This document shows, in pieces, positions 8,503 through 61,693 of a stretch of DNA of 64,000 bases. Each line of letters opens with the position of its first letter. The stretch's first letter is position 1. Position numbers and translations under genes: made by a program. Below the pieces are notes generated by a model, which did not search any database, was not told the origin of the DNA, and was given only the letters and a program-made list of their open reading frames with translations. This DNA is from Romanomermis culicivorax (lineage: Eukaryota > Nematoda > Enoplea > Mermithida > Mermithidae): the NCBI GenBank assembly GCA_963922205.1, contig CAWUHX010000364.1, positions 186,001 through 250,000 on the forward strand, in the 5' to 3' direction.

Positions 8503-8910
8503 TTGAGTTTTGGGGATACTGCACCTGATCCAGGTCATGTAGTATCAGCCTTTTACCCCATTGAAATGAGGACCCCTCATATCAGAGTTCTCCTGAACAA
8601 TTGGGTGGAGGCCAAAGCTCTGATTGATACAGGAGCCATTTTCTCACTCCTGGATCACAAGTTGGCAGTCGAGTTACCGGACTTGGTGCTCACAGAGACT
8701 AGGGCTCGCCCCATAGCAGCCATTGGGTCTCCGATTCTACTGCTAGGCACCGCCTATGTCACAGAGACAGTAGCTGATGTCTCTGAACGGATTCAGGTCC
8801 AAATTCAAGAGAATTTTTCAGCTTAACTAGTCTTGGGGATGAACTTCCTCGGATGGTTCAATTGTGTCAGCTTGAACTGGGAGAAATCCTTTCTTCAGTT
8901 CAAGGAACTT
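8503..8910 (+). pseudogene. pol segment: second retropepsin-like protease domain
   Basis: ALIDTGAIFSLLD supplies the catalytic D-T-G at about 8617-8650. After a TAA at 8824-8826 the same frame continues LVLGMNFLGWF, the conserved C-terminal G-x-N/D-F-L of retropepsins. The domain is close to the usual ~110 residues and lies immediately before RT, where gypsy elements normally carry protease. It is therefore the more likely ancestral protease, with the 7498-8070 copy an extra one. The single stop makes this copy a pseudogene unless read through. Confidence 0.7.
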
Positions 8911-23900: not shown

Positions 23901-26900
23901 AGGCAAGAAAGTGTAGCCAATGTGAACAGAAACATTTCGATTTACGCCCGAAAAAGGCAAAATCGAAGAAAAACTGATCTACAAAAAGCTAAATTGATAC
24001 TTCAAATGAGAATACCGCTATACAGGGGATTCGAAAGCATATTCCCCAATCAGGAATAAACTTAGATGAACCTAATAGTGAATCCCTCATACTGAAGATA
24101 TCTATATTGCTTGCCAAGATGATGCAAAGTTTCAAAAGTTTGTGTGAAAGGGCTATAGCTAACAGCCAAGCTTTAAAAGACTTGACTGCAACTGTTGAGG
24201 AGGGAAAAATCCTGAATCAACAAGGTAGAAAAGTCAAGAAGCCATACTGTAATTACCATAGGAATTACTCCCATGATACATCGGACTGTCGAAGCCTGAA
24301 TTTTATCAGGAACAGACAAAAGACAAAGTGGGAAAATGAATATGGTAGGGACAGTAGATTCAGTTGTGGTATACAGTCTAGACACACTGTAGGTAGTAAT
24401 GCAGCAAATGTTGAGAGAGTTAATATACTGGAAATACTGCAAATGGAATATTGCAGTATGAAATATACTGCAAATCAAGATAAACATCAATGGTCTGCAA
24501 ATTTTCAGGAATGTATCAGAGGAGAGAAGCTCAATATTCAGCATATGCAGCAATCACTACCTGTGAGTCAAAAGCTTAATTTCGTCAGTCCTATTTCAAA
24601 GCTGTCATCTGAGCCTCAGAAGCAATCAGTCACGTCTTTAGGGACAGATCTGAAAGCACATTGTGGTGAAAATGAGATAGCTAAGAAAGAAGACAAAGGT
24701 GAAAAAAAGAAGCCAGAGGTGATAAATAGCATCATTGTACAGGATCAAATGCCACAGAGTGTTAAAGTGAAGGTGAGGAATGTGAATGGGGAATTGTTAG
24801 AGAAAGAAAAGTGTAAATTTGAAGTTCACTTCAAGTCAAACTGGACTCAAACAGAAGAAGTTGAACATCTGAATATGGTAAAACAACCTCAGAAGTTATG
24901 AGATCAGATGATTTTTGAAGGAACTGAGAATTGTGATTTGGAAATAAATCACCTCAAGGTAAATGAGGTATTCATGTTCAAAAGGAACTTCAATGGTGAA
25001 AGGTGATATGAATGCCAAAGGTGCCATAATCATCTGAAAGGAGGAACAGCACCTTACGGCAGTTCATGCAGTTGACACAGCTGCATAGTATTTTTGCATT
25101 TTATTTTTGTATTGTTACACTTCAAATTTTTAAATATTTCTGCACTCAAAATCAAATTTTTTTTTCAACTCTCAAATTTTTCAAGATTGTCTTACTGCCT
25201 TAATTTTGTCATTAGAAATTTTTAGAAATTTAGATTTTTTGCAAATTGAAAAATGAGTGAACAATTTGCTCGATCATGAAAAAAATTGTATTGGACGAGC
25301 ACATCAGGCAAGTCAGCCAGGATATCGGCAATAAATTCAATTGTCTTTTCTATGCTGATGGTGAGTTTATTTTTTGAATTTTTTCAGCGGGAAGAGTCAG
25401 TCCATTTTAGGTGCTATGGGAATGATGACTTCATGCTCATACTGCTTAATGGGCGACCAAAGGGCAAATGAGAAATGAAGTGTATCAGATGGAGTATGCT
25501 ATGGAATAGTCAAGATGAAATTAAAGAGTCATGGCAGAAATGCCAGAACTTTAAATTTTGTCACTGACCAAACCATTTGCATTGTGGTGTTATATGTTTA
25601 AAGCCCTTAGTTTCAAATTTTCTAATTTCAAAATTGAACCTGAAAGGGTTCTATCAAAATCAATTTTTGGAATTCGGAGGCATGGAGTTGTCAATAGAAT
25701 GTTGGACAGAGACACTGCAGTCGAGTGGTAAGAGTTTGGATTGAGTGTGGGTATCCGTAAAGGTGGCATTCTCCTTATTTTCTTACTAGCCAACCAAATT
25801 CTGTGACTATGGCACCTACAAATCACAATTTTCCCCCGCATTGAAGTTGTTCATGGTGGAAAGTGATGTGTGTATGTCCATACAGATTTGAGTCAAATCT
25901 AAATGATAGTTATTCATGTTTATGGTAAGTCAAGCTGTAACTGCAGGTATACCTGCAAAGCGGCAATGAGCCCATCTGTGACCAGATGATCGCATCAAAC
26001 CAATAGGACTCTGCATAGCAACTATGGTTGCTTAGGGAACTCGATGTTTGGAGTGAAGTCTGTATCACATAGAATTTTGAATTCATGGAAGAGAAAAAAC
26101 TGCTCATGTTGAAAGGTTGAAGTGTACACCGGAAAATAGGCTATGGAGCTAGAATGGCATAACAAAGCTGAAAATAAGGTCGCAGATACCAGTATACAGC
26201 AGCAGTTTAAAGGCGGTGGACAACAGCAGTAATTTAACCGCAACAATTTTGGCCAAAAATTCAAATTTTCATTCAATTTTATTAACTTTTCATTCAAAAT
26301 TCATAAATTTTCAAATCCAAATTTCGAAACACTTTTTGATTTGCTGTTGATTTTTTAAAATTCATTTATGTGTACATCACACATTTATTCTTGATTTCAA
26401 ATTACTCGTATTTTAATACTTTCGTTGTTTTTCATGTGATTTGATGTCTATTTTATTTAGATTTTTTAAACTCAAAAATGTCACCCACTACACTGGCGGA
26501 GAGGACGATAACAACGCAATTATGCAGGATATATGGACCTGCTACCAAAGACACTCCACATCACTCAATGGGACGAAACGATCGACTGTGGAGGAAGGTA
26601 CCTAGGAGCCTCAAGGCACACTGGCAGAGCAAGGGAAAGTCAAGCCGGCGCAGAGTCGTCGATCCGTCAGATGCTGGATCAATGATCAATTGTGCCGCAG
26701 CATCTTAGTGGACAGACCTGGGTAACCTTGTAAAAGACTTGACGTTGGAGGTTGTCATGACCCGTACACCCTTCGGGGTCAGGTCATGAGGATTATGACC
26801 CGTACACCCTTCGGGGTCTGATCATAATCTTTTATGGAGTTGGGATCCAGTAGTAGGTCACACCGTAAAAGGTAAAAGTCCTGCTCATGGTTTCCTTCTT

Positions 26901-41556: not shown

Positions 41557-42173
41557 TGTTGTGCAGGTCTTTCCTTAAGAGGCGTAAGAAAAGATTGGGT
41601 CTGAACTGACCTGTTAGAACTGATCCCCTTGGCTAAGCCTCGGTGATTAGTGCAACAGTCCGGTTATCCCCAGACCTACAACAACAAAGATAAACTTTGT
41701 TCTAAATACGGGGGCCTTACCAAGGACCTCCGCAGTCTCCTAGCTGAGACAAGGAATCCCCTCAGGGATAAACTTACTTGGGTATAACCCGAAAGGGGTT
41801 TCCCAAAACTTACTTGATGTGAGCCGGCGCCTGGGCCTCTGGCCCTCCGCCTTCGTCGATGCGAATATTCTAAATAAACAAATGAATATATTAAACAATA
41901 TGTCCGACGAATTATGCAAAAAGAATGTGGGTATACCACAGTAAATAATGTATGAACAAAACACGTTGCTGGGAAAATTATATTTGGGGACGCCAGCAAA
42001 TATAACCAAAAATATAATAAAAACTCGAATATCGTGAACAATGATTTTCACTATCACTTTCGTTCTTTCTTTGGCGCTCCATTCTATGCAAATGTCTGCG
42101 CCGCTGGTCGTCCCTTTTGTTGATTTGCATGTCGATTTCCCCACACGAATTGGCATCAACAGGGTGCCCAACA
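41557..42173 (-). repeat. 3' LTR of Element 3
   Basis: 617 bp, TG..CA ends on either strand. Outer 115 bp (42059-42173) and inner ~300 bp (41557-41866) match the 5' LTR closely. The central ~200 bp are much more diverged, with indels. Confidence 0.92.
42086..42130 (-). promoter_or_regulatory. paired octamer motifs in U3 of Element 3
   Basis: ATGCAAAT at 42086-42093 and its inverted form ATTTGCAT at 42123-42130, conserved in the other LTR at 56138-56145 and 56175-56182. The octamer is the known binding site of POU-domain factors. Its conservation in both copies, within the conserved outer LTR part, suggests an enhancer function; binding is inferred from the motif only. Confidence 0.4.
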
Positions 42174-42183
42174 TCCCTCGCGC
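42174..42183 (-). promoter_or_regulatory. polypurine tract of Element 3
   Basis: Directly before the 3' LTR the - strand reads GCGCGAGGGA. Position and purine content fit the plus-strand primer. Confidence 0.5.
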
Positions 42184-42930
42184 GTCGAAACCGACCTATG
42201 GGAGGTAGAAAAAAAACTTTCGGCCGGGTTACCTCGGCATTAAAAAGAATTAATCAAAAAAGAAAAAAAAAATCTACAATTCCGGCTGACTCCTGATAAA
42301 CAGTTTGTCTCACTCGGACTCCCGTTTCACAGTCTGACCTAATAGGACTCCTGTGCTGGTCGTTGGACACAACGAATACCAAGGGCTTCGCCGCAATGGC
42401 TGGCAAGTGACGCCCATTTTGACCTCGGCGTTGATGGAATAACCTCCTGCCCTAAGGAGTACGACCTAGACGTCGGTGCCGAATGTGGTCGGCTTCGGGC
42501 TCGACCGCTCGGTCTGCATGCTGTGTCAATTCGTTGACGGTGGGTCTAACTGCATGCAAATCGATTTCCCGCGTCTCTATTTTTTCTAAATTAAACTAAA
42601 ATACGAGATTATATGACAATACAAAAAGACGACGCGGGAATGTACGGATATCACAAAATTTTAAAATGCGCTAAAAAATTTGAGCAAAATGTGGCCAAAA
42701 GTTTTAAAATATTTTTCACGGTTGCGTTTTGCACCGGTTTTGTCAAAAAAGAAATTTTTGATGGCCAGCAGCACCGAAAATAATGTTTTTGGATTTTTTG
42801 TTTTTTGATTTTTTTTTGGGGTTTTGTGATTTTATTAGTGTTTTTGGATTTTGTGTTTTATGAAATAAGTAAAAATATATGTACGAAAAAGAAATTTTTG
42901 GGCCAAAATTTTTGCGGCTATTTACTGCTG
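42184..42930 (-). other. 3' untranslated region of Element 3
   Basis: Non-coding stretch between the stop of the second gene and the polypurine tract, partly GC-rich (42280-42540) and partly T/A-rich (42780-42900). No frame of note. Confidence 0.6.
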
Positions 42931-45900
42931 CTACCCGCCGCCTCGGTAACCTCCTCGAGGTCTACCTTGATAGTACCCCCTCTGACCTGGTTGGCCTCGG
43001 GTATGACCTCCATCTTGGCCTCGATTTTGGCCTTGTTGGCTCCCGCCGCGTCTACCTAGCGGCATAAAATTCGGATTATGGAATTGAGCATCCGGGTCTT
43101 GACCTTGGTGTTGCCAGGTTCCTCGGCCTCCGTAGGGTCGCTGAGGGCGCCCTCTGAAGCCTCCTCTGAGTTGACCTTGGTCATACCCCGGTCTAGCCCT
43201 ATACAGGGCCGGGTTTGAGAACATATCGTCTCTCCCCTGCTGCCTTTGACCACTGCTGGTGGAGCTGCTGCGTTGAGGTTTGTGTGTCCGATAAGTTGAG
43301 TTAAGAGATTTTGATGATATTGATTTTGATCGAGAAAGCGGACTTTTATAAGAAGTGCTAGCAGCCTCACTATATGACCTCTGGCTGGTCGTAGCCGATG
43401 ATTGTTGTACCATCGGCGGTTGTTTCTTAGCCGGAGGGAGTCTAGGCACCTTGAACTTACCTGGGCTCTTGGCAGCCGTTCGCTGATATTTATCAGCTTG
43501 CGACCTGTCATCGCCTGGTGCCTTCCTCTTAACACCCATCTGGTTTAACCTTTGCGAGCCCATAAAAATATATTGATTAAAGGCTGCAATGTAGACATCG
43601 TCTACGGGGTTTCCCTGGGCCTCAACGACTAGTTGTCTGTTCGCAAACGAACACGCCTGGGCATACCACCTACCAATTGCCGTTGGCGTGATCGGAGCGA
43701 AGTCCAACTGTAGAAAGATCATTAGGGTCACATACCTAATGGCCGTAAAGACGTCTGAGGCATCGTAGTCCTGAAGCCATCTGGGGATGAGAATTAAAAT
43801 GATCCATTCCCAAATTTCCTCAGGGATGCACTCTCCGTCAAACATGAAACCACCTTGCATTTCAAACTGCTGGCGGTAATTATCATGAATTTCGGCCATA
43901 GCATCATTGACCATTCTGTAAATGATCGGCCGTTCTTGGTGATCAAAGGCGAAATAATTGGCGACCTCTGGATTTTCGAATGAGATCGGCCCAATTAAGC
44001 GCCTTTGTTCCCGTTGCCACTCCCAATAGTCAATCAGAGTTTCGGCTAATTGACCAGGAGTGACAAACTGCTGTGGTTCCCTTTCGGGTCTACTAGCTAC
44101 CACATTCAGTTTGACCTTCTTGATCAATTTCTCCTCCGATTCAAGATCGGGCTTCACCAATACACTTCCCGCAGGTTTGCTACTTCTTGCAGTATAGCTG
44201 GAGGGCACGGATTTGCTTTTGCCAGATGAAGTACTAACCTCTCCGCCGGTTTTCGATACTGTTCGCGTCTGAGTGTACGAAGTTGTCGCAGTGGACCCTG
44301 TTGTCCTATCCGATTTTGTCTGGCCTTTGGAGGTCTCCGTTCGCGTCTGACTTTTTGAAGTCTCCGTCCTCGTCTGACTCTTCGAAGTCTCCGTTCTCGA
44401 CTTTTGACTCGTCGAGTATTGTGGGGTCGTTGTTTCTTCGGCCGTATCGTAGGCGTCGTTTTCAGATCCGGTGGCGGCCGCTCCTTGTTGCTGCTGTCCT
44501 TGAGCTGCAAGTCTGCGTCGTTTGGCCTTACCTATCCTCTTTCTGCGCCTTACCTTTTCCTTGGCCAAGTGTCGGATAAATTTTTCCGACATACCTTCAG
44601 CTAACATCTGCTGAACTTTGTCTGGGGAATAAATTCCAGGAATACCTTCCTCGGCAATTCTTCCCCTCCTCATCAGCTCTGTCGCTGCAATGGCTGAATC
44701 TGAGCTATCATCGGCTAGTGCCTGCTCCTTCAGCTTCCTTTGGATTGCCCTCTGACGCAGGAATTCCTGCTGCGTCAGCCTTCTCTGTTCTTGAATTTTG
44801 GCCTGTAGGGCCTCTTGCTTCGCTTGTCGGTCGTGATCCTTAGGATCTGTGGCCTTCACAGGTATCTCCTGGGATGCTTCCTGCATCTTCTCCAGTCTGA
44901 CATCGATCCCTGACATTTTAGTGACTGCTTCGTCAATTTGAGTCTGGATTTTTTCCTCCTCAATAGCCTGTTTCTGAGTCTTGGCCTCCATCGCATCCTT
45001 ATTTTCTGATGTCTGGCCCTCAGATTCCAGAATTTCACCCTCTTCTTCTTCTTCAACATCCTCCTCTGAACTGGACTCAGAGTCTGAATTTCGTATCTTC
45101 GGCAAGAGCTGTTTTACTTTAGCTGGTAACACAGCTGGTGCCGGAGGTACAGACTGCATAATGGTGACAACCTCTGGCTCAGGCTCGGCCGGTTGCTGTA
45201 CTTGAGGTACTTGAGTCGGCTGTGCCACCGCTGGTTGCGTTGGCGGCGGCACCACGATTATTACTGCAGCTGCCTGCGTAGCAGCAGTGTCCAAAGCTGG
45301 TGTAGCTTTGACCACTGGCGCTAGCGCTTGCGGCTGCGTTTTAACCTGTCCCGTCCCTCCGGCTTGCGCCATTTGGGAAGTAGAGGGACGATTTACCGGT
45401 ACCTTAGATATTAACTCACCGGCTGGGGTATATGTTAATGTATACCCGGGCATCTCCGAAGCGATTGTTCTCTCCCGGAAACTTTTGCTAACAAACTCCG
45501 GTCTGAGCTGGAGCGGATTTCTCGGTGCGTACGTAATTGGGTAATCGGTCGGCGATGCGTCTTCCGTCATCGGATACCGCAGTCCCGGCGTCAAAGTCTC
45601 GAAGCCTACGTAGTAAAAAGTTACATAAAAATAAGGATTTACCTTGTAGGCTCCGTCCTTCAATAACGATTTGTCGTCGCCGATTTGCAAAATTTCCTCG
45701 GCTTCTCGAAATCGTAAGGGGACAAATCCGAACCGATTCTGCCACGCGTATACCCCTTTTTTAGATGGAAAGCGGGGTTCCGACGGCGGTAGCGTTGCTG
45801 CTAACTCTAAATAATAAGCCAGGCGGTCGCCTGACTTCCAGGACATATGTTTTATCATTTCCTGGCCTTCCCTAGTATAACTATTTAGGAAGTTATAGTT

Positions 45901-47450
45901 CAGCAAAGGGCTAGTTTCATAATCGCACTCCGCTCTGGAATGAGGCCATGCCAAATGATAGGCCAATGGCATAAATTTAAAGATGACCTCTAACTCCGCA
46001 AAGTTTCGCTCATCTAGCATACCTGAAATTTTTGCCAAGTTTGGCGTATAAAAATTGGTCTTGTAGGCCTGTCTATGACCCTCGATACCCACTGGGTAGT
46101 GGTTGTTTGCTGAAAACACCTCTTCAGGTATTTGATCGGGCTTCCCGGCCTGTTGCCAGTATAGCTTGGCGTTTTCGTATAAAGTCAAAGAAATTTTCCC
46201 GTCTAAATCCCAATAGGTTCCACCTGATTTGAGATTTTCCAGGATATCTTTTGAAATATTAACCCAGTCTGGTATCTGGACGTCCTGGATTTCGTCGGGA
46301 TCACTATCTGTAGTGTATCCATCGTCCTTCATCAGTTTGTTATCTCTTGGAAGCAGTGGATAGAAGCCACTTGGCAGCTGAACTCCCTGAGGACGAACTG
46401 GATTACACTCCGTGGGCGCGGTATAATAACCTGTGTTATTTCCCTGCATCTGTACAGCCCAACGGTTATACATTTCACACTTCATCATGTGATAGACCAT
46501 ATTCGGCTGTACCTGATCGGTTTCCATAACTGGGGTACCTAGCCCCATTTCTCTATTCACATTGCCCGGGATCATTAGATATTGTTGATAAAAATGTAGG
46601 GCAACGGTGTTGATCTGTTTGGGATCCACCTTGTCATGGTCGAAAATCTGCATTTGCATAAGCAGTTGATCGGCCATGCCATAGTGAATGGCGGCAAACA
46701 TGACCAATAAGGAGTAGTATGCGTCTAGAGCCGCGTACCTAAGCTCTTCCGGCAATATACCCCTTTTGGCAAACCGATCACGGTTCGCCTTTAATGAAAA
46801 GTCATACTGGTAGGGGCCCACGTCTATCAGGTAGAATTCCGTGAACAGTCCCTTTAACCGAAAGGTTTCGGGACAGATACCTGTCTGAAAGCATTTTTTC
46901 TCCAGGTTTACTCCTACCATGGTGAGAGCGAAACGGTCTAAGTCAAAGTATCGACCCTTGGTCTTTCTCAGAAATTCCCGTAAGGGGACAGTTTTGTCCC
47001 TGTCCTTATTGTCTCGCCCTGCACCACATACGTTATAGATACTTACCAGGTCCTCCAATACGGAATATCCGGCGAAGAGCATGTCGGAGTTCAAGAAGTC
47101 GTGGAGGCTGGTCCACTCTTTGAGCATCATCGACGTTGTATCAATAACGTAGGTTTGACCATTCGTTAGCGCGAAGCTGACGTATCGGGCAAACTGCTTT
47201 CCCATTGGATTGTCGACCTCTCTTGTTTTAAACAAGGCGGCGACCTTATCCTGGTTGACTTTTTCAACATCGAAGCCACAAACTGGTTGTCCTCTGAAGA
47301 TTGATACTTCTCGGATAAAATGGAGTGTCTGGCTGACTTTCCCGATGTCTACCAATTTTGGTTCCTTGGGATTAGCCGGCCAGTACCCAAATGTGGCTTT
47401 AAACCACTGATCCAGTTCATGGATTCGTACGGCCCGTTTGACGTTATAAT
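42931..47450 (-). CDS. second gene of Element 3: DEDDy 3'-5' exonuclease domain plus long RGG-tailed protein
   Basis: Open from an acceptor at 47450 to the stop at 42931; the part from 47355 is 1474 codons (numbering from there). Residues 25-225 look like an RNase D/WRN-type exonuclease: CGFDVE (D29, E31; Exo I), [10 protein letters not shown] (D102; Exo II), [10 protein letters not shown], and [15 protein letters not shown] (Y207, D211; the Y-x3-D of Exo III). This family removes nucleotides from 3' ends of DNA or RNA with two metal ions. Then come a ~450-residue region of no known fold, a Pro/Ala-rich linker (~670-760), an acidic run, a Glu/Gln-rich coiled coil (~785-885), a basic cluster ([13 protein letters not shown]), three 9-residue TETSKSQTR repeats, a second globular part (~1085-1265), and a Ser- and RGG-rich tail likely to bind nucleic acid. 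No Met codon occurs in frame before Exo I, so translation must start in an upstream spliced exon. Function in the element (proof-reading, RNA trimming, defence evasion) is unknown. Confidence 0.85.
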
Positions 47451-47465
47451 CTAAACATAAGATAC
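47451..47465 (-). promoter_or_regulatory. splice acceptor for the second gene of Element 3
   Basis: The - strand reads GTATCTTATGTTTAG followed by the open frame. The frame upstream of this AG is not usable, the frame downstream needs two bases to complete a codon (phase 1), and no ATG precedes the exonuclease motif. A donor in the first codons of gag (GT at 55489-55488, after 25 coding bases) has the same phase. Confidence 0.55.
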
Positions 47466-48677
47466 TATTAATTTTAATGTTTATTCCCCTTTTTTCAGCG
47501 CATTTTCGGGTCTATACTACACCAGCACCACAACACCAAGCGGGTTAAGTTTCGCAGAAAATTAAATTTAGTGCAGGTTGTTAGGTGAGCCACTGATATA
47601 CAAACATTGAGCTGGTAGGCAACTAACACCTTACCAAATCTTACCCTTGCTACCTCTATATGTTGGGGAGGGTAGACCTGATCCGATTGTCCACCACTTG
47701 ATCGGACACCAATCTCTGACCAGCTGCTTGAGCGACCAACTACGCTCCATTTATGGCGCTGTATTTACAATTTTTATAGCGCTCGAGATTGATAATTTTT
47801 AATAATTTTGATATCGAAAAAGTGATATAATTTGATTTGATTTGAAAATAAATAATTTTTGATAAATTTTTGATGATAAAACTTTAAAACGGGCTGAACC
47901 CAAGGTTCTAGGTTTCCCTTGAATCGTATAGCTCTCGGTGGTATCAGGTATATTTCCAAGTTTGGAAATTCCCTGCTTGGCTTCGAGCTTCCGCTTCTCA
48001 GTACTCCCATTTTTCGTTCCCTCTAAGTTCTAACCTCGTCTGCCCTTTGGGGCGCCGAGCTGGTCTTCCAGTGACTTCTGGGCATTACCTGCGGTTTCCA
48101 AGAATATTTGATAAAAATAAGTTCGAAACTTACCGTCGATGAAGAAAAAACGATTATCTTGGCGGTGCTGGGCCCTGCCATATTCGACGTGGCGCTCTGT
48201 GTGCGACCACTCGCGCGTCGGAGCTTGTTGGCGGTTCCGCGCGCCCTTTCCCATTTCTTTTCGTTTCGAAATGTTTTTCTTTTTCGAATAATAAATTTAA
48301 AAATTAAAAATTTTTGAACGCTGAAAAAGTTTAATATAGCAGTTCTGCTAATTTCCTTTTTATCGTGATTTGGGGAATATTTTACTTCTTCCTTCCGATG
48401 GAAGTTTAGAATTCAGATAAGCGGGGGCAGCTATAGTTTGATTTTAGAAAAAATGAAAAGTTTGAAAATTAATTTTTTGGAAAAAATGTCGGAAATATTT
48501 TGGGTTGTCACTTTGGTCTAAAATTCCGAAGAATTTTTCCCAAAGTCTGAAATAAATATGAAAAATTTACAAAATTAATACGAATAATACATAAACGCGA
48601 TAAATATTACAAATTAATACATTTTTAATTAAAATTAGTACCTACGCGCGCGAGATATGTACACAAAATAAAAAAAA
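47466..48677 (-). other. spacer between gag-pol and second gene
   Basis: 1.2 kb, AT-rich, no long frame on the - strand. It would be intronic or untranslated in element transcripts. Confidence 0.6.
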
Positions 48678-51600
48678 TCAGCGCGAGATCGCGCATGGAT
48701 TCGCCTTGAGCGAATTTCCAAATGATTTCATTTGGTTTGGCACTCCAGTCATAACTGTTTGTGCCATATTGGAAAGTGACATATTTTCGTCACGTGGCGC
48801 GTCCTGATTGGCTCGCGCTATTCGCGGCAAGACCCTAGTGGTCTCGTAACGAAAATGTTTCAACCTGCTGATTGAAACAGTTTGGCGATTTAGCGGGTTG
48901 TCCCAATGTACAATGGTGACAACGTTCTCTGCTTCTCGCGAAATGTCCGTAACTATGAACGGACCGGACCATGGTAGTCCTAATTTTTTCTGCTTGTCTA
49001 CTTTGAGCAGAACCCAGTCCTTTTCTTTAAACCCATTTTGTTTGGACTTTTTATCGAAGTATTTCTTCGATTTTTCGGCAGCACTCTGGATATTTTTGGC
49101 AATATCCTCGTAAAGGTTGACTAAATGATTGGTCAACACGAATTTGTATGCCTCTGCATTGCTGTCCGGCATTACAATATCGTATGCTTTCGATAAGTTT
49201 AACCCGAAGGTTGCCTCGTGACCTCTAAGCAATGAAAATGGGGATTGCCCCGTGGCTGCATGTGGTGTGGCATTGTAAGCAAACACCACGGCTCTCAAGT
49301 ATCTCGGCCAGTTATCTTTTTCCTCGATGGCCACCTTTCTGAGCTGTTTAATGAGTGTCTGGTTGAACCTTTCTACCATACCATTTCCTTGTGGATGGTA
49401 GGCTGTTGTAAAAATTTTCTGACACTCTAATAACTTGCAGATCTCTTTCATCAGATCTGAGGTAAAACAACCTCCTCTATCGCTGAGTAGTCTCCGTGGA
49501 GTCCCGTGTCTAAATACAATAGCTTGTAGAAAAGTATCTACAACGGTGCTAGCTGACTGATCCGGGATCAGTTCAGCTTCAACCCACTTTGTAAAATAGT
49601 CTTGAAAGACTATGACATACGGTCTCTTCTCACTGAGTGGAGAAATACCCACGATATCCACTGATACTATGTCAAAAGGACCTTGTGGAATAATTGGTAT
49701 CAGTGGCGGAATTTCTGTGTTTCCCTGATTAGCCATTTGACAAACTGGACAAAACTTGATCCAGTGCCTGACATCCTTTTCAATTCCAGGCCACCAGAAC
49801 CGTTTTTTAATCATAGCAAGGGTCCTTTTGAACCCCTGATGAGTCATCATTACGGCACCGTGGTACTGGTGCAAAGTATTGTCCCTAAGGCAGGATGGGA
49901 CGACCACTTGATCGTCCGACCCCTGTCCGGCTTCCCGGTATAACACTTCATTCTGGATATAAAATCCACTGTGATACTTGGTTGTCCCATTTGGACCCAA
50001 TCTATCAAAGTATGATCGTAGTACCTCATCTTTTCTCTGCAAGAGGGCCATGAGATCATCTCTAATTAACCCTTTTGGCAATTCATCTTCTTTGGGGTCT
50101 GCCAAAGTAAACTCCTGTTCTTTCTCTGGGTATAACCAGGTTACTCTTTTTTCCTTACCTTTGTCCTGGTTTCCCCTACTTACCTTTTCGTTGACCTGAT
50201 TGCCATCAGGCTGGATCTGAGCCTGATTACTCTTCTCCGCTTCTTTCGCCATGCTCCTTGTAGTTACGGCATTCACCAAGTCTGCAGGCGAGTTTGATTC
50301 TGGATCACCCTCAGAATCTTCTGGATATATCTGGGTGAATCTCGGACTTATTTCAGTCCTCTGATTATTCTTACCTTTTGGCTCCGGATATAACGGAGTA
50401 CCGTCTTCAGGATTCCGATCTGTCAGAATTCTGAATCTCTTTACCAAATTGAGATGCTTTTTCTCAATAAGCTGTGCCTCAAGATCTTTCAGATTTTCAG
50501 ACTCTCGTTTATCCTTTGAGAACATATGTTCCCATTTTGGCGGTATCTTTTCCGCTTGATCGTCTGGTTCATCCATCCTGGACAAAAAGTCTGCCATGGC
50601 ATTTTGTTTTCCAGGCACATACTCTAGCTTATGGTTGAATTGAGAGATGAATGAGTACCATCTCTTCAACTTACCATTGGTCATGGCATTGACCTTCATT
50701 GACAACAAAGGTTTGTGATCAGTTCTTATGATCACTCTATGACCTACTAAGTAGTGCTTGTATAACTTTAAGCCATACACAATTGCCAAGCACTCCCTTT
50801 CCGTGGCTGACCACTTTTTCTCATCCGCTTTTAAAATTCTGCTATTATAAGCAATTACCCAGCGGTCTGACTTGGTCTCCTGGTAAAGGACTGCTCCTAG
50901 TGCCGTTCCGCTGGCATCTGTCTGAAGGACAAAGTCCGCAGACCCATCCAAAACCGGATACCTAAGGAATGGCACTGACAATAGTGCTTCTTTCAGGCTC
51001 CTAAAAGCCTGATGGTGAACCTCCGTGACTTCCCAAACACAGTTCTTCCCAGTTAATTTATACAATGGTTCAGCATGTTTAGCTAAACCCGGTATGAACT
51101 TCTTACACCACTGCAACATACCTAAAAACCTTTGCAGTTTACGTTTAGACTCTGGGAATGGGAAATCATTTATAGCTTTGACCTTTTTCGGATCTGGGGA
51201 AACTCCATCCGAATTTAAGATATGTCCTAAAAAATGAACTCTCTCAGGCAGGAATTCACACTTCTCCGGCTTCAAGGTCAAATGAGCCTTTCTTAGAGCT
51301 TGCAGGACTAGCTCTAGATTAACTATGTGTTCCTCAAACGTATTTGAGAACACAATTATATCGTCTATATAGACTAGACAGATTTTCCAAACATATGGAT
51401 GCAAAACTCTTTCCATCATACGCTGGAATTCGGCTGGCGCATTTTTTAGGCCAAAGGGCATGACTTTAAATTGATAAAGCCCTTCTTGGCATATGAAAGC
51501 AGTTTTCTCCTTGCTTTCTTCATCCATTGGCACTTGCCAATATCCTGATTTGAGATCTAGGGTAGTATAAAACTTGGCTTTACCTAAACAGTCTAGATAG

Positions 51601-54600
51601 TCATCCATTCTAGGAATGGGATACTTATCATCCTTGGTAACATCATTTATACCCCTAAAGTCCACTACTGGTCGCTTGGTACCATCCTTTTTACCTACAA
51701 GGAATAACGGAGCTGCCCAAGGCGACTTTGATGGCTCAATTACACCCTTTCTGAGCATATCTTGCACATGCTCACGAACATGTGGCCGTAAATTTATAGC
51801 AGTCCTGTGGTACCTTTTTGCCACAGGGGCCGCATCGCCTGTATTGATTTTACAGGTCAGGTAGGGTGTAGTAGTTGGCGGATCATTGGGCAAGCTGAAC
51901 ACGTCTCTATATTTTGCGAGACATCGTAGAGCTTGTTCCAATTGTTCAGATGGTATGTTGGATTTAGCCAGCATATTGTACAAAGCTTCCTTGAATGCTT
52001 TCTCATCCGATTGAGGAGCTTCAGGTCTAGCTTGGACTGCACAAGTTTGCAGCTTCTCCAGATCCTCAACTATTTTCCCCTTGAGTTGATCTTGGTTATC
52101 AGTATCACACAACACTGAATTAGTATGGCCAATTATTTGATTTCTTTTCAAATGGCATCCTGATCCTGTGTTGTTGGATACCATAACAACAAAATCATCT
52201 TTTGTACCATCTACTATGGTACTATCAATGTGGAACCTTTCTTCATTCTCTTCAGACTCTATTATGATTCCATTAAGGCGATTTTCGCCTACCTTATCCC
52301 AAAGCTTTGCCCTCAGAAGTATATCAGTACCACTAGGTAAGTAGATGGGGTTCACACTCACCACTGGCACCGAAACCTTTAGCAGGCAAATCTTTGGCTG
52401 GTATTGGTCGGCCGCGCTCATCGTGGATTCCGCAGCGGTCGTGGTCATGACCTCTCCACAATTTGATTGGGGCTGGTCCGGCGTCACGTATATCCGTTGT
52501 TGATGGTTGTTGAGCGTCATCGTCCTATTCCTGAAATCTATTATGGCTCCTACCTGAGGATGAGCCAAAAAGTCTGTACCTACTATAACATTTTCACCTG
52601 CTTCAGGAATTACAATTGCTTTAACGGGGAACTGTCCACACAATGTATCCATCCTAAATTGGATATACCCATGGGCTTGGACTGTCTTACCGTTGGCTAC
52701 AGTGACATTTAATATCCTGGGATATTCAGTGTACTCCGGGCCCAAAGTTTCTTTCAGAAACTTAGCCGACATGACAGTGCACTGAGCTCCTGTGTCAATT
52801 AAAGCCATTGTCTTACGACCTCCTATAACAACCTCAATGTGGAATGGGGCTGTTCTGGGGTACATATCCAGCAAATGTTGTTCCTGAGGACTAGCTGGTG
52901 TGCCTCTCCTTATTACTTGTACTGATGGTACTATAGGTTGTGGTGCAATTGCATTCATTTGCACAATGCTACCTAATACAACATTTGGGCAATTCACTCT
53001 CTGGTTTACTTCACCTGAAGGACTCATTTGAGATTGCCTTGCAACCATAACACTCGAATAATCCTTCTGAGGTGGCTGATTTGTGAATTGACCCTGCTGA
53101 AGAGTCTGAGTCGGTCCCATAATAGCCTGAGGCGGCTGAGGTTGCTGTAATGCAGCTTGTTGTTGATATTGCTGCATCTGTTGGAACTGCTTCTGCAGCT
53201 CCTTCTGTTTTTTAAACTCCAGAAATTCATTATAATCTGAATTCTGTTGGTAATTCTCGTGGCTATCCTGATAACCTGAATAGCCTACATTATACGCACC
53301 TCTACCTCTGCTATTATAGTTGGCATTTGGGTAACCTCCTCTACCTCTATAGTTACCTCTAGCAAAAGTGTTGAAGCCTCCCCTGTTGAAGGTAGGGAAG
53401 CTGGCTCTACCTCTGCTCCTGCGCTCGGACAATACTCTCAATGTCCTGCAGTCTGCAGTATTATGTGTTATGTTCTTGTGGAACTCACACCATGGCTTTG
53501 TCGGATCTCGGGAAACTTGACCTCCCTGACTGGTACTAGGTATGGCCAGATCAGACCGATTTTCCATTTGCCTGTTATCAACCTTTTGCTGGAGCTGGTC
53601 GAACCTTTCGACCAGTTGTACCATCTCCTTAGATATTTTTAATAGAAGGGATTCCTTCTTACCTTTTTCGGTCTGAGCCCTAGGGGCTTCCCAAACTGGA
53701 ATCTCCTCTATCTCAGGAGAATCACTCCTTGACCTTTGGGTTTGGGCCTGTACCTGATTACCTACAGTTTGATATGGTTGCCGAAACCTTTGCCTCTGGC
53801 CTTGTTGATATCCTTCTGACTGGTTCCTGGCAACTACGGCAATTTCAGGATCATGCCCACTAGGCATACCTACTTCATTAATTACAATAGGATCCTGTTG
53901 TGTACCCTTGGGTCCATATCTCTGAAGGGCATTCTTATATCTCCGTTCAATGTCATGAACTTCAACTGCTAGATCATACCAAGTTCTAAAGGTATGTTTT
54001 GAATTCTTAAGTTCAGACTGGAACGTGGGGTCACTCTTATATATGAAGGTGTCAATGATCAGCCTCTGTTTAGACTGATAGTCCAAATCACCTTTAACTA
54101 GTTCCACTAATATACTGACCCTTTTTAAAAACTCTACGGCCTGTTCATTGGGTCTTTGTTGGATCTCAAATAACTCCCTGGTTAACATTTCCAGGTTGCA
54201 CTCAGGTGCAAAGACATTAATGATGGCTCTCCTGGCCTCCCTATAGGTCATGTTGTCTCCTGCAACGGCCTTCGGTCTACCTTTAGAAAGCCTCAGCAGT
54301 GCTTCATACTTAGCTGATTCGGGTGTATCCCTACGGAATTCCCCTTCAAGTGCTGTTAAGAAGCTAAGCACCTGCTGATTTACCATACCCTCATCTAAAA
54401 GTTTGGGTAACACACCTTTAACGATATTCCTGACTACAATCTCTTGTGCCAAATTATTTGATGGCACTTCCCTCTGATCATAAGCTGCTGTTAATACTGG
54501 GTCAAGATCAGAGTTCAGAGATTGCAGCATAACTCTATTTGGATCTCGTTGAGGTGGTACACCTCCTTGATATGATGGCATATTGTCTTTGTCAAACCTG

Positions 54601-55514
54601 TAATCCCTATATGGGAAACATGCCAATTGATCTGGTCTAAGGGTATTTGGATCAACTATATTTCCTCTACCGTCATAGACCACTCTAGTTAAAGTTGGAT
54701 GCTGCGAAGCTATCTGATTTTGATTCCTGAAGTCTGCCGATTGCTCAGCTCCTTCGAATCGAAGATCTCTAGCTGGACCTCTCCAACTTTTGGGCTCAAA
54801 GTTAAGCCTTTGCCCTTCATCAATATCAGGCCTATTACTAGGCCCTGCGCCTGCACTTATTTCAGCAGCGAGACGGTTGTCTCTTTCTGCACCCCTATTA
54901 CATGGTCTAACCTGTCTATCCGGCTCCTGTCGGCGCCTGTCGGCTTCCCTTTTATTGTCCTCTGTGGCGGCATTCATGATTATATCGAACAAGGCTTCGA
55001 CGGTCCCTTTCAATTCGCGTAGCTGCGTCGCCAACTCTTGATTGGACATCTCGGGAGCTCTTTCCTGCGGTTGGAATCGCTCTTGTTCCTGGGGAATCCT
55101 CTCTAATCGTTGATCAATTTCCGGGTCCCTTTCTTCCAAATTTGGTCGAATTTCGGGCGTAACGACGTCCCTTTTTGGTCCTGCTAATTCGACCTTTGGC
55201 GGTGGTGACCTTTTGAAATTTTGCTGCGGGGGTCCATCGGCGTCTGGGTTCGGATTCGCCGGGCCTGCCTCCTGCGGATCGATGGCAATCGCTGGTGGTC
55301 GGTCAATTGGTACGCCTGCATCTTGAGGCGTAAAATGCATTGCATTTTGCTGCAATGGTTGAACCCTCGTGGGAGTTTGATCTGGGATCACTGGGTCCGG
55401 AGCAGCCTGCCGTTGCTGATCTCTGTCTCCCAAATTGACTAGATTCCCAGCACTCGCCACTCTGGGTGGTGATCTACGTAAAGTATTACCTCTTGGTATC
55501 CTTTCGTTAGGCAT
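48678..55514 (-). CDS. gag-pol: gag-pol polyprotein of Element 3, intact
   Basis: 2278 codons from ATG at 55514, no internal stop or frameshift. Residues 1-250 are Pro/Gln/Arg-rich. 355-530 form the capsid-like region shared with Element 2. 676-689 hold a C-x2-H-x4-H-x4-C knuckle, followed by an RG-rich stretch to ~740. Protease: ALIDTGA (D907) with IVGTDFL (~978). RT ~1230-1430 with FYTTLD and YIDD (1382-1385). RNase H: D1533, E1574, D1599. Integrase: HHCC (H1885, H1892, C1922, C1925) and D1953, D2012, E2048; GPF at 2184-2186. The element therefore fuses gag and pol in one frame, so gag and pol are made without a frameshift or stop between them. Extra unassigned segments lie between PR and RT (~1030-1150) and between RNase H and IN (~1650-1800). 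Confidence 0.95.
55488..55492 (-). promoter_or_regulatory. candidate splice donor inside gag start
   Basis: AAGAG/GTAATA on the - strand, with 25 coding bases between the gag ATG and the GT. The phase (1) equals that of the acceptor at 47450. Retroviral env messages often use a donor near the gag start in this way. Confidence 0.45.
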
Positions 55515-55610
55515 TTTAAATCCTGCTAACTTTCTGTAGAAACCTGGAGGATTTTCTTTTCTCCTAGTCTGACTACGAAGTTCCGTGGTAAGGAGTTAAA
55601 AGCCACCACT
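55515..55610 (-). promoter_or_regulatory. primer-binding site and short leader of Element 3
   Basis: Immediately inside the 5' LTR the - strand reads AGTGGTGGCTTTTAACTCC (PBS about 55592-55610). Only 96 bases separate LTR and gag ATG. The same PBS with one change is found in Element 2. The tRNA was not identified. Confidence 0.65.
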
Positions 55611-56225
55611 TGTTGTGCAGGTCTTTCCTTAAGAGGCGTAAGAAAAGATTGGGTCTGAACTGACCTGTTAGAACTGATACCTTGGCTAAGCCTCGGTGAT
55701 TAGTGCAACAGTCCGGTTATCCCCAGACCTACCACAACAAAGATAAACTTTGTTCTAAATACGGGGGCCTTACCAAGGACCTCCGCAGTCTCCTAACTGA
55801 GACAAGGAATCCCCTCAGGGATAAACTTACTTGGGTATAACCCGAAAGGGGTTTCCCAAAACTTACTTGATGTAAGCCGGCGCCTGGGCCTCTGGCCCTC
55901 CGCCTTCGTCGATCGCTAATAATATCTAAATAAACAAACGAATATATTAAGCAATATGTCCGGCGAAATATGTAAAAAGAATGTGGGTATACCACAGTGC
56001 AATACTCATAAAGAAAACAAGTTGCTGGGAAAATTGTATTTGGGGACGCCTGCAATAATGTCAAAATATAATAAAAACGATATAAAGTGAAGAATAATTT
56101 TCACTATCTTTTTGGTCTTTTTGTGGCGCTCCATTCTATGCAAATGTCTGCGCCGCTGGTCGTCCCTTTCGTCGATTTGCATGTCGATTTCCCCACACGA
56201 ATTGGCATCAACAGGGTGCCCAACA
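55611..56225 (-). repeat. 5' LTR of Element 3
   Basis: 615 bp, TG..CA ends. Two strong donor-like words CAAGTAAGTTT lie on the - strand at about 55829-55839 and 55860-55870, near the 3' part of the LTR where R/U5 would be; both are also present in the 3' LTR. Octamer pair at 56138-56145 and 56175-56182. Confidence 0.92.
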
Positions 56226-56767: not shown

Positions 56768-59700
56768 ATCATTGTGATGACATTTTGGTCGATGCGTCGA
56801 AATTCCCGCTGCCCCGGCGCCCTCAGTTATCGTCGACTAACGGTAGCGTCATCAGCACGCGTAGTGAATCATCTTCGTCGTTCCGTAATAACAACGATAG
56901 AAATAATATCGCCGTTATTCCTCCCGCGTCGTCGTTATTCACTGATCGTCATGTATACAGAAATCAATTGCCGTCTATCCAGCGTCAACAAAACCATCGA
57001 CGACCGCCGGCCTCGGCGCCGCCCGCGTCAGCCGAGACGGCTTTGATTGGGACATTTTTCAAGTAAGCCAATTTATATTCGAACTAGCGTATGCATCAAG
57101 GGCTCTCTATATTTTTGAATCAAAAACGACCACTCTTCCAGTGCGACTGAGATTGAAATTCAGTTTTTTGAAAAAATGCAAGTGAAAAATCGTTTCTGAA
57201 GACTTTCATTTTGACGCCACGTGTTTTTGTGCACTTGATTTACTTTTTGATTATTCTTGATGTGTCGAAAGTTTTATAGTTTTATGTTTATCGTTAGATT
57301 TATGACTCCCAAATTGTATTCATTGAATTTCTGTTCTGACCTGTTTCATTGATTTCTTCTGTCACCTTTGTTCGTTTTCAACTCCGTCTAGATTTTTTAT
57401 AGCATTTAATAGCATTTTTACTTACATTCAAGTAGTTCCAAACATTTATCTTGATTGACTATGTCAAAGTTGCCTCGCCTCAAAATGTTCCAGTCCTAAA
57501 ATTTAGTGATTATTTATCTGCTATGATAAGCTTGAATCTGTTATTAATCCAGTTGGAAATTCGAGTTCCCCATTTTTTCTCTCATTTTTAACACACTGAT
57601 TTAATTAGTACGAAAACGCTTTTAGACCCTTGAATAAAAGAATTGGACGCATTTAAGGATGTATTATTTTTTACTTTTTTTCATACAGTAATGCGTACGA
57701 AGCAAAAAATGTTCGTTTTTTCATTTTTGCATGATTAAAGGAAGCATTTCAACTTTTTCAGCTTCCCTTCATCGGAACATAGTGACTCTCCGCCGTCTTC
57801 ACCGCCTTCACCTTTCACGGATGGCGGTGGCAGCACCGCCACCGATTTCCAAATCAATTACTGCGAAATCGCCCCCAATGTCGGAGCAATAACGCCATCG
57901 TCGTTGTTACGCAACGGCAGTTTACCTCCGTTTTTATCGGGATTTCGGCAAAACTGCGATCATCCGATTTCCTCGACAAGTACTTTACATCTTTCGTCCG
58001 CCAAGAGCAACAGCGCCTGCGTTTCGCGACGTAATTCGAAAGAAGAAGACGACGACGAGGAACAACAATATTACCGGAATCATAATTGTACAACGTTCCA
58101 AACAGCGGCGCCGCCGTCGTCGTTTCAACATTCGCCGCAAACACGCGATCAAAAAATACCTAAAACGCTGGATTCTGCGCGCTTCGAATACGCCAAAATT
58201 GACGAAGTGGCCACTAAAGCCATATCCAAGGTAGAAATTCTAGTTCACAACAAATCCTCATGTTTATCGATATGAACATTTCGCTAAAAAGTGTATGCGC
58301 TCTCTTCTAAGAGCAAGACAAATAAAAAATTTCGATGCTTCAGCACAGCATTCTATCAAGCAAAAATTGAATGTTTCGACCTTTTAATTAAAAAATTGTG
58401 CTCATTGATGATTATAGGATATTCGTCAGCTGACTCCAGATATTTGATTACAAAGTTAAAGTATACATAACAAACCTCACTTCAATGAACAGCTTGAAAA
58501 AAACGTAGCAAGTGTTCTTTGCATGATTAGACGCGAAGCGCCGGCAAATTTAGGCGTTTTCAGCCTATAGAAAATGCTGCATCTATAACTGTTTGTATCT
58601 ATGATCGCAGAGATGTTGATAGACTCATTTTTCGAAATCGCGTTATTAAGCTCTAAATTGGTTGTAGGAATAGATTTTTACTGTATTCAGCATGATAAGA
58701 CCTAAAACTAGGAAGTTCCATTTTTCCTCATTTTTTGATTCACTATTGACTACGGAAGTATCAGAATGTTCGGAGCAAAGACTGACTGTGGGGAAAACGA
58801 CGGAAAGAGCTTGATTTTTTCTGCCATTTGGAAAAAGTGCACGAAAAAACCGTACTTCGTACGTGAAGTACAAAAAGCCTGTCAAACTATACATCGCTAA
58901 AAGTTTTTACACCGTTCTCAATTTTCGCAGATGTTTTTGTAGAACCTTTCGTCGTTTTGGAGGAGCTTGTTGAACTAATTAAAATCGAAGATGCCATAAA
59001 ATACACATCCGTACTATTCTATATGTATTATACCGAATAATGATTCTGATCAAACATTGTAAATTTAATTTTAGGTTAGTTTTAGTTTAAGGAATTTTTC
59101 CACCCCCTTTGACAAAGTATATTTCGTATTACTATTTCAACTGTAAAATGTGCGGATTTGGCGAGAATCACTCTTGTTTTCATCAATAACCTCCATTTTG
59201 TGTCTATTTTGGTGCAGTTTTTTACATGACATCCGGGAGAAAATTCAACATTCAGTGTTAGTTCTAGCTAAGGTAATTCAACATCAGCGTTTTAATCAAT
59301 GCTGTACGATTAGATGAAAAAGCTAAAAAACGTGATTCCCGACGTAAAAAGTGACGTGATTCTAAAGGCCCTGTCATACTTCGCCGCGAGGTACCGCGCG
59401 GTGTCGTAAGGCGCTGCTTTTTTACTTTTGGATTTTGCTCTTCTCAAAAAATGCGTATTGCTCGTCTCGACAAATGCAAAATACGAAAAATGCGAAAAAG
59501 ATGAAGAATACGAAAAAAATCGAAAAATAAATAGCGCAAAAGAAAAATAAAAATCAATCATTCCTGCACTGTGCAGATAGAAGCTTGCAAAAAAGCCTAG
59601 TCTAAAGATTTTGGGCTCTTGCTTCAATTTGCTTCCCATTCCAACGATTAATAGCTCTTGAACTGCTGAGAAATATCAATTTATACAAATTGATTTTGAA

Positions 59701-61693
59701 AAATTAAATATATATTCACGATTATTCATTCACATATGTGCTATATACAGGATCCAGATCTGATCTGGGTCCGGTCGGGCCTGCTGTTTAGGACTCAGAT
59801 TCAAAGTGGATCCATCTCCTTTCCCTAGTACTCAGGAAATCGGGACGTTCAGGGAATAAAGACCAATGCATTTTTCGGAGAAATAAAAAATTTATTCATT
59901 ATTCGTGGAATCGGAACCTACGGGGAATATGAACTTTCGCACAATTGGGATATTTGCGGAAAAACGACGTTGGGAGAATAAAGACACAGTCGAAATGGAG
60001 TACACTTGCTGTAGGAACATGTTTACACCTACTTTGCATATTCATAATTTTTACACGTTATAATGTCTTCATTGCAAATTAAGTGATCAACTTCTTAGTA
60101 AATCTTCACTGAAAATTAAGTAATCAATTTGGTAAAATAATTTGACAAGTGTCAGAATTTACCGTTCAAGTGAAAATATGATTCAACTACATGTATAGAT
60201 GTCACAGTATGCAACAATATGTTATAACAACAGTATGCTGCAACTTTAGAACACATAACTTGTTCGAAAATTTCGATTCAGTCGAAACTTGATGGCGGCG
60301 CCGCAAAAATTACAAAAACCTATTCATACTTCAAAGGTGGTCGATAGGACAACCGGCGCCCCTCTATCCATACTGAAAAGCGGCGCCGCGCGGTACCACC
60401 TTTGAAGTATGAATAGGTTTTTGTTGTTATAACATATTGTTGCATACTGCGACATCCATACATGTGGTTGAATCATATTTTTCACTTGATAAATTCTGAC
60501 ACTTGTCAAATTATTTTATCAAATTTATTACTTCATTTTCAATGAAGATTTACTAAGAAGTTGATCACTCAATTTGCAATGAAGACAATAATGTGTAAAA
60601 ATGATGAATATGCAAAGTAGGTGTAAACATGTTCCTACAGCAAGTGTACTCGCACATTTCGATTGTGTCTTTATTCCCCCAACGTCCCTTTTCCGCAAAT
60701 ATCCGGATTGTCCGAAAGTCCATATTCCCCGTAGGTACCGATCCCCCAATAATGAATAAATTTTTTATTTCCCCGAAAAATTCATTAGTCCCTATTCCCT
60801 GAACGTCCCGATTTCCCAAATGCTAGAGAAAGGATGGATCCACGTTGAATCTGGTTCCTAAACAGCAGATCCGACCAGACCCAGATCAGATCTGGATCCT
60901 GTCTATAGCACATATGTGAATGAATAATCGTCTCAGCAGTTCAAGAGCTATTAATTGTTGGAATGGGAAGCAAATTGAAGCAAGAGCCCAAAACCTTTAG
61001 ACTAGGCTTTTTTGTAAGCTTCTACCTGCACCGTGCAGGAATGATTGATTTTTATTTTTCTTTTGCGCTTTTTATTTTTCGATTTTTTTTCGTATCTACC
61101 ATCTTTTTCGCACTTTTTCCTATTTCGTATTTGTCGAGACGAGCAATACACATTTTTTGAGAAGAGCAAAATCCAAAAGTAAAAAAGCGGCGAAGTATGA
61201 CAAGCCACCGCGCGGCGAAGTATGACAGGGCCTTGAGGCTCAAAAATGCCTGCATGAGTCGGAAAGTATATTGTTGGACTGAAGATGTTGAAAAATGTTC
61301 TACGCTTTGTACCAAGAGTTCGAATTTCAACAGATTTCTAGACTATAATCCCCCAATCGTATGTGATAGTAAATTCAGATTAAATCGCGTAAAAAAAGAA
61401 AAATATTCAGACGAGAGTAGTAAGTTTTAAGATCAGTTTTTTGTGGTTGAATCTTTTCAGTATTTCCTTATTTGAGTGTTTGTAAACAAAGCTCGCTCAA
61501 TTTTTGACAGAATTTTATGGTGCGATCAAGATTTGAACAACCGCTTATATCGAGCCAGACGTTGCCAAGAAACGCCTGCGGTCGAGATACATTACCGTCA
61601 ATCAAGGCTACTCAAAAAGGCGGTAAATTGCTTCGTAAGGGCGCCAACTTATTACGCCGGCGAACGAGTTTGACAAGTTTGTTGAACCAGTAG
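56768..61693 (+). CDS. proline/serine-rich protein, possible GAB/IRS-type docking protein, C-terminal exons
   Basis: Exons 56768-57062, 57762-58230 and 61511-61693 have matching phases (2 bases in, then 2/1, then 0) with AG acceptors and GTAAGC or GTAGAA donors, and end with TAG at 61691-61693. The gene must start further upstream. The product is Ser/Pro-rich and disordered, with LPRRPQL and PPSSPPSP stretches and YCEIAP. Near the end it has YAKIDEVATKA, resembling the Y-x-x-[IV]-D-x-x-x-T-x-A segment near the C-terminus of GAB/DOS or IRS-like adaptors, where a phosphotyrosine would bind SH2 proteins. The last exon is basic (LLRKGANLLRRRTSL). No PH or PTB domain is in view, so the family call is weak; that these are exons is firmer. 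The last intron (3.3 kb) contains the palindromic element. Confidence 0.55.
57063..57761. other. intron of docking-like gene
   Basis: 699-bp intron, AT-rich, no repeats noted. Confidence 0.5.
58231..59364. other. left part of the last intron of docking-like gene
   Basis: No repeat or exon recognised; AT-rich. Confidence 0.45.
59365..61234. mobile_element. 1.9-kb palindromic foldback element
   Basis: Left arm 59365-60341 and right arm 60395-61234 are imperfect reverse complements, with the outer ends AAGGCCCTGTCATACTTCGC and its complement. The innermost part is an almost exact pair (AAAACCTATTCATACTTCAAAGGTGGT) around a 53-bp loop. The arms differ by substitutions and a longer insertion in the left one. 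No transposase frame. Open frames on both strands in the arms mirror each other and are not genes. No clear target duplication. Confidence 0.8.

Follow-up and report, generated by a model that had tools for sequence, protein, structure and literature searches.

The element and its third open reading frame

A 64-kb window of the genome of the nematode Romanomermis culicivorax (64,000 nucleotides; assembly GCA_963922205.1, contig CAWUHX010000364.1, positions 186,001 to 250,000; all coordinates below are those of the window) was analysed. Its minus strand carries, at 41557-56225, a Ty3/gypsy-type long terminal repeat (LTR) retrotransposon of ~14.7 kb, which is multi-copy and in which a long open reading frame (ORF), ORF3, lies between integrase and the 3' LTR. 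ORF3, the subject of this account, appears to be related to the DEDDy-type 3'-to-5' exonucleases. Twenty copies of the element, the window copy among them, were fetched from the same genome for the comparison of residues, LTRs and ratios of nonsynonymous to synonymous substitution (dN/dS), and counts out of 20 refer to these copies. The coordinates of the features are collected in Table 1.

Pfam matches in the single gag-pol frame (RVT_1, E 4.4e-39; RT_RNaseH, 1.7e-30; Integrase_H2C2, 1.3e-18; rve, 8.8e-15; gag-asp_proteas, 2.8e-9) follow the gypsy order of protease, reverse transcriptase, RNase H and integrase, and the element was assigned to its class from the LTR pair, the target-site duplication and this domain order. 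No dUTPase was found among the 10 Pfam families matched in gag-pol (E<=1). The 24 bases following the 5' LTR are the same in 20/20 copies. An antisense placement of ORF3 relative to gag-pol was considered and dropped, as the ORF table puts both frames on the minus strand.

Read from a TTG codon, the ORF3 frame covers 1474 codons (47355-42931), and it remains open back to an acceptor-like site at 47451/47450, giving 1506 residues. A preliminary description, made from the letters of the sequence, had proposed an intact frame of about 1500 codons between integrase and the 3' LTR, with D-x-E, a downstream Asp and Y-x3-D in its N-terminus and an RGG-rich tail, and each of these points was borne out. 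The frame end given there, 47450, coincides exactly with the acceptor-like site; all five catalytic residues, D61-x-E63 (47271-47263), D134 of Exo II (47052-47050) and Y239-x3-D243 (46737-46723), are invariant and in the right order in 20/20 copies; and the tail holds nine RG dipeptides within residues 1429-1503. In the protein a putative exonuclease domain (~38-259) is thus separated from the RG-rich tail by a long middle part in which no known domain was recognised. In the window copy ORF3 ends (42922-42933) at a TAG; the corresponding codon is CAG in the 19 other fetched copies, whose frames continue to a TAA three codons on.

Relationship of ORF3 to the DEDDy exonucleases

The link between ORF3 and known exonucleases was established through a second repeated family of the R. 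culicivorax genome, here called family B. A search of the genome with PF01612 (DNA_pol_A_exo1) listed 80 matches at E<=0.001, from which 30 loci belonging to family B were fetched (L042-L071). Four family B proteins tested against PF01612 scored above its cut-off (E 5.7e-11 to 4.6e-14), and the best solved relatives of one of them were a MUT-7 homolog (6.7e-4) and the WRN exonuclease (0.0026). The catalytic residues are present in 20-21 of 21 family B copies, with a dN/dS of 0.136. A stretch homologous to the integrase of the ORF3 element (element residues from ~1938) was located upstream and on the same strand in 26/30 loci, ending ~350-710 bases 5' of the family B ORF; no upstream integrase match was found at the other four (L044, L045, L064 and L071). 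Judged from this arrangement, family B is another retroelement family whose DEDDy gene is placed, as in the ORF3 element, behind integrase. Several related fragments are already labelled as 3'-5' exonuclease domain-containing proteins in the public annotation.

Pairwise comparison of ORF3 with family B using BLAST aligned up to 274 columns of the exonuclease domain (residues 11-248) at 24-28 % identity, with a best E-value of 1.7e-4 in the 30-sequence set and values of typically ~0.01. The Smith-Waterman scores of ORF3 against six family B partners were reached by 0, 0, 1, 1, 1 and 9 of 1000 shuffled sequences, and MAFFT placed the D, E, D, Y and D of ORF3 and family B in register. Twenty-one family B copies and five solved DEDDy enzymes, but not ORF3, were combined in a profile, which gave the first 290 residues of ORF3 a score of 18.6 bits, compared with 7.2 bits for the best of 500 shuffles; a profile of family B only scored 10.0 bits (best shuffle, 3.9). 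Alignment of family B with the five DEDDy enzymes in hhalign gave a probability of 93 %.

A number of results weigh against this assignment. The higher-scoring profile aligns residues 85-248, which include Exo II and Exo III and leave out Exo I, and only MAFFT and some of the BLAST alignments brought Exo I into register. The best local alignment of L042 to ORF3 covers just 28 columns around Exo III. The hhalign probability was 28 % for ORF3 against family B and 8 % for ORF3 against the five DEDDy enzymes. ORF3 gave no Pfam match, either as a whole at E<=1 or with its exonuclease part at E<=10, no significant match in NCBIfam and no meaningful match among PDB sequences. Two AlphaFold models of ORF3 were poor (predicted local distance difference test scores of 48 and 53), and a Foldseek search gave no exonuclease or sensible fold match among the 50 of 712 rows listed, structure prediction thus being uninformative as to an RNase H-like DEDD fold.

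Other searches were likewise negative. PHROGs gave nothing significant, and a search of 5.8 billion proteins with full-length ORF3 left 0/3225 candidates at E<=10; 24 public protein fragments were related to ORF3 at E<=10, 23 of them labelled R. culicivorax. No match was found in viral contigs (ORF3 and gag-pol) or in bacterial and archaeal genomes (ORF3), collections that contain few eukaryotes and so provide weak evidence of absence. On the balance of the alignments we conclude that ORF3 is homologous to the DEDDy exonucleases through family B. It is not a member of PF01612 by the curated cut-off, having no match to that family at the thresholds given above. The exonuclease homology put forward in the preliminary description therefore stands by way of family B and the combined profile, and the direct Pfam search recommended with it gave no support.

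Copies, selection and expression

In a search of the host genome with ORF3 the best 32 of 6262 candidates were scored, window copy included. All 32 match ORF3 over 1474 codons with 97-98 % identity (100 % for the window copy), giving a family of at least 32 copies, and the frame is free of stops in 30 of them, the other two each having one TAG. The gene is thus shared by the family and is not a one-off capture, the possibility that had been raised against it. The start of gag and of the 5' LTR were found at the expected place in 20/20 fetched copies; in L002 and L010 gag is interrupted by a stop among its first 316 codons, so that not all copies are intact.

Pooled over the 20 copies, dN/dS for ORF3 was 0.058-0.059 (dS 0.102, dN 0.0060), as calculated from pairwise values in which shared branches are counted many times. 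The first part of gag, of which 215-321 codons per copy were compared, had a ratio of 0.242; the values were 0.044-0.074 for each of five ORF3 segments and 0.20 for the 32 codons by the acceptor, where there are few changes. The comparison between copies, which the preliminary description had suggested as a check, thus provides strong evidence that ORF3 is under purifying selection.

Both LTRs could be delimited in 19/20 copies (the exception being L020). An exact 4-bp target-site duplication is present in 16/19 and the LTR pairs are 0-1 % apart in 17/19, indicating that the family moved recently. The LTRs of the window copy are 6.7 % apart, with a near-identical 3' part and a clearly divergent 5' part, and no target-site duplication was seen. 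L007 has LTRs 6.0 % apart and is also without a duplication, as is L011. The window copy and L007 look like recombinants between elements. As the window copy lacks the duplication, whereas most copies have one together with LTRs 0-1 % apart, its LTR divergence is most likely a result of recombination and not a clock of age. The earlier argument that a frame still open after the LTRs had diverged hints at selection therefore fails in its LTR part, and selection stands on dN/dS without it.

The start of ORF3 was examined in the same copies. No in-frame ATG occurs between the preceding stop (33 or 63 nt upstream) and the acceptor in 20/20 copies, and in 9/20 Exo I precedes the first in-frame ATG, which has residue index 82. 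The acceptor, TTTAG/ATTATAAC (the slash marking the junction), is invariant in 20/20 copies, and one-base indels just upstream of it shift the frame between copies. Among the public R. culicivorax gene-model fragments, at least 10 of 24 join differing upstream residues at this point, the residue at the phase-1 junction being D or N; these are automatic models rather than transcripts. A donor 25 bases into gag retains its GT and its phase into ORF3 in 20/20 copies. It scores modestly, 6 of 9, as do other in-phase pairs of ATG and donor, none of which scores higher, and among these pairs it lies closest to the gag ATG. Since no in-frame ATG precedes the acceptor, the acceptor is invariant, gene models join there and gag offers an in-phase donor, a spliced mRNA that starts at the gag ATG and yields the ORF3 protein is predicted. 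In the remaining 11/20 copies the first in-frame ATG is at residue 32, ahead of Exo I, and an unspliced start is possible there, which speaks against the splice route in those copies. The env of retroviruses is made from a spliced mRNA.

Table 1. Features of the window copy of the element, in window coordinates
Feature	Position	Strand	Remarks
5' LTR	55611..56225	(-)	615 bp, TGTT...AACA; from LTR-pair alignment, limits as in other fetched copies
Primer binding site candidate	55591..55608	(-)	2 bases inside 5' LTR; read from sequence
gag-pol	48678..55514	(-)	one open frame, 2278 aa; protease, reverse transcriptase, RNase H, integrase (Pfam)
Predicted first coding exon of ORF3 mRNA	55490..55514	(-)	25 bases from gag ATG; donor GAG/GTAATA at 55490/55489
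ORF3 (second exon of predicted spliced mRNA)	42931..47450	(-)	1506 residues including junction codon; acceptor TTTAG/ATTAT at 47451/47450
Putative DEDDy-type exonuclease domain of ORF3	46675..47340	(-)	~residues 38-259, approximate limits; D61, E63 / D134 / Y239, D243
RG/RGG-rich C-terminal tail of ORF3	42939..43167	(-)	read from translation
Polypurine tract candidate	42174..42183	(-)	purine-rich, abuts 3' LTR; ten bases and LTR start same in 20/20 copies
3' LTR	41557..42173	(-)	617 bp, TGTT...AACA

Elsewhere in the window, an ORF on the plus strand (5985-7127) matches Pfam Monjiviricetes_fusion (2.5e-16) and, below the cut-off, BDV_G (1.8e-4). It sits in another LTR-bounded element, with reverse transcriptase at 8833-10461 and integrase at 10483-11757, and was read as a captured mononegavirus-type fusion glycoprotein, its location upstream of reverse transcriptase on the same strand being an odd placement for an env-like gene. 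A large nested inverted repeat of ~1.8 kb (59402-61202; arms of 60-159 bp, 79-97 % complementary) is a possible source of long hairpin RNA. A further inverted repeat (20902-22454) has arms of 172 bp, 1.2 kb apart (94 %), and is adjoined by a 108-bp exact direct repeat (22452/27511) enclosing two ORFs, 22587-24059 and 24107-24901, neither of which has a Pfam match at E<=0.01.

Possible roles and comparison with known systems

The explanation that we favour, and hold to be rather probable, is that ORF3 encodes an RNA-binding DEDDy 3'-to-5' exonuclease, which is translated from a spliced mRNA and removes nucleotides from RNA 3' ends, host small interfering RNAs (siRNAs) being the favoured substrate. 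The spliced RNA would borrow the gag start codon and so provide ORF3 protein apart from gag-pol, the RG-rich tail would bind RNA, and the enzyme would work at the ribonucleoprotein of the element, trimming or degrading RNA from the 3' end. Catalysis, splicing and RNA binding by way of the tail are what we infer from the sequence, and the substrate (RNA, and host siRNAs in particular) is guessed from context. An active enzyme is argued from the invariant catalytic residues. RNA 3' ends are favoured over cDNA ends, and host siRNAs among the RNAs, for three reasons of context. The ORF3 frame is separate from gag-pol. DEDDy ORFs are also described in the Penelope-like Athena retroelements (PMC5408684); the activity of the rotifer DEDDy ORFs is itself described there as undemonstrated, a point against the proposal. 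The host, finally, belongs to the clade I nematodes, which, in the account given in PMC4323106, have no PIWI-interacting RNAs (piRNAs). There PRG-1/PIWI is listed as lacking from this clade, of which R. culicivorax is a member, and transposons are reported to be silenced by Dicer and RNA-dependent RNA polymerase siRNAs, the transposon data coming from Trichinella (PMC4323106).

The main alternative, tentative although nearly as likely as the choice of host siRNAs, is that the exonuclease acts on the element's own nucleic acids, by trimming the 3' ends of its RNA or pre-integration cDNA or by proofreading. DEDDy enzymes act on the 3' ends of both RNA and single-stranded DNA, and the two bases separating the LTR end from the primer binding site candidate suggest that the cDNA ends are probably trimmed somehow. 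Processing of retroelement RNA 3' ends has been suggested by Rodriguez et al. (PMC5408684). Against this alternative, two-base trimming is the normal work of integrase, ORF3 lies outside the gag-pol frame, and the same type of ORF is described in Penelope-like elements (PMC5408684). Penelope-like elements are not known to have an integrase of the retroviral type. It is improbable, in our estimate, that ORF3 is catalytically dead, a nucleic-acid-binding or ribonucleoprotein-associated protein that retains only the DEDD fold, as reported for Maelstrom and EXD1. The exonuclease region, highly divergent and without a Pfam match, occupies only ~220 residues out of 1506, the protein ends in an RG-rich tail, and inactive RNA-binding DEDD derivatives are cited in PMC5408684, but the invariance of the five catalytic residues, and their retention in family B, argue for an enzyme.

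Two further readings have very little probability. The location after integrase and the gag-proximal donor are traits of retroviral and errantiviral env genes, which would make ORF3 an env-like gene with DEDDy motifs by chance. Hydropathy, the only measure used, gave a best 19-residue Kyte-Doolittle mean of 1.5, too low for a transmembrane segment, on which ground this reading was rejected, and the RG-rich tail and the homology to the PF01612 family (profile residues 85-248; BLAST 11-248) also contradict it. The least probable reading is that ORF3 is a captured hitchhiker without function. Within one genome, the env-like and GDSL-like ORF3s of rotifers are described as varying mostly neutrally, in a test that did not extend to the DEDDy ORFs (PMC5408684); the low dN/dS of ORF3 and of family B and the 30/32 open copies are against such a fate here.

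The favoured role can be extended, with some speculation and at a probability that we consider low, to an anti-RNAi nuclease: at least two retroelement lineages, in a nematode lineage without piRNAs, would carry DEDDy enzymes that destroy or trim the 3' ends of the Dicer siRNAs directed at them, and the DEDDy genes of rotifers would serve the same purpose. If true, this would be a transposon counterpart of the viral suppressors of silencing. There are precedents for a nuclease in such a setting. ERI-1 is a DEDD exonuclease that limits RNA interference (RNAi) in Caenorhabditis elegans. An arenavirus 3'-5' exonuclease is described as participating in the suppression of host innate signalling (PMC7968707).

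The preliminary description, which knew of no stand-alone DEDDy exonuclease in any LTR family, is not supported on this point. Rodriguez et al. (2017) described DEDDy ORF3s in the bdelloid LTR elements Vesta and Juno, acquired at least twice (PMC5408684), and a 2019 paper counts the DnaQ-like exonuclease among the well-known accessory domains of LTR elements (PMC6338049). No report of retroelement DEDDy genes from nematodes was found in the open-access literature. New here are the host phylum, the presence of two families in one genome that share the gene position behind integrase, the large and very divergent ORF3, its splice anatomy and the strength of the purifying selection, the DEDDy ORFs having been left out of the rotifer variation study as described (PMC5408684). 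Retroelement-borne DEDDy exonucleases would thereby reach nematodes, beyond rotifers, and the probable splice route together with the selection makes the enzyme's role for the retroelement testable, including the idea of transposon nucleases directed against small-RNA silencing.

In its D-x-E, D and Y-x3-D motifs ORF3 resembles the cellular DEDDy enzymes (MUT-7/Nibbler, WRN, RNase D and Rrp6), although direct comparison with these enzymes gave no significant match. It shares with family B an ORF placed after integrase on the same strand and a domain ~24-28 % identical by BLAST, whereas family B differs in its direct PF01612 match, its frame open up to ~610 codons and its own ATG, and the integrase pieces at family B loci are only 24-44 % identical to the integrase of the ORF3 element. 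The Athena and Terminon Penelope-like elements likewise combine a retroelement with an accessory DEDDy exonuclease, but they are described as elements without LTRs, up to 40 kb long and located at rotifer telomeres (PMC5408684, PMC6431247). From Vesta and Juno, compared by description only, the Romanomermis element differs in its nematode host and in the length (1506 residues) and RG-rich tail of its ORF3. All members of Juno, Vesta and TelKA are stated to have a dUTPase between protease and reverse transcriptase (PMC5408684), a domain not found by Pfam here, and the catalytic set is DEDD in the Romanomermis ORF3 and DEED in the bdelloid ORF3s (PMC5408684). The general plan is nevertheless the one described for Vesta and Juno, an LTR element with a DEDDy-type ORF3 after pol, in more than one lineage per genome (PMC5408684).

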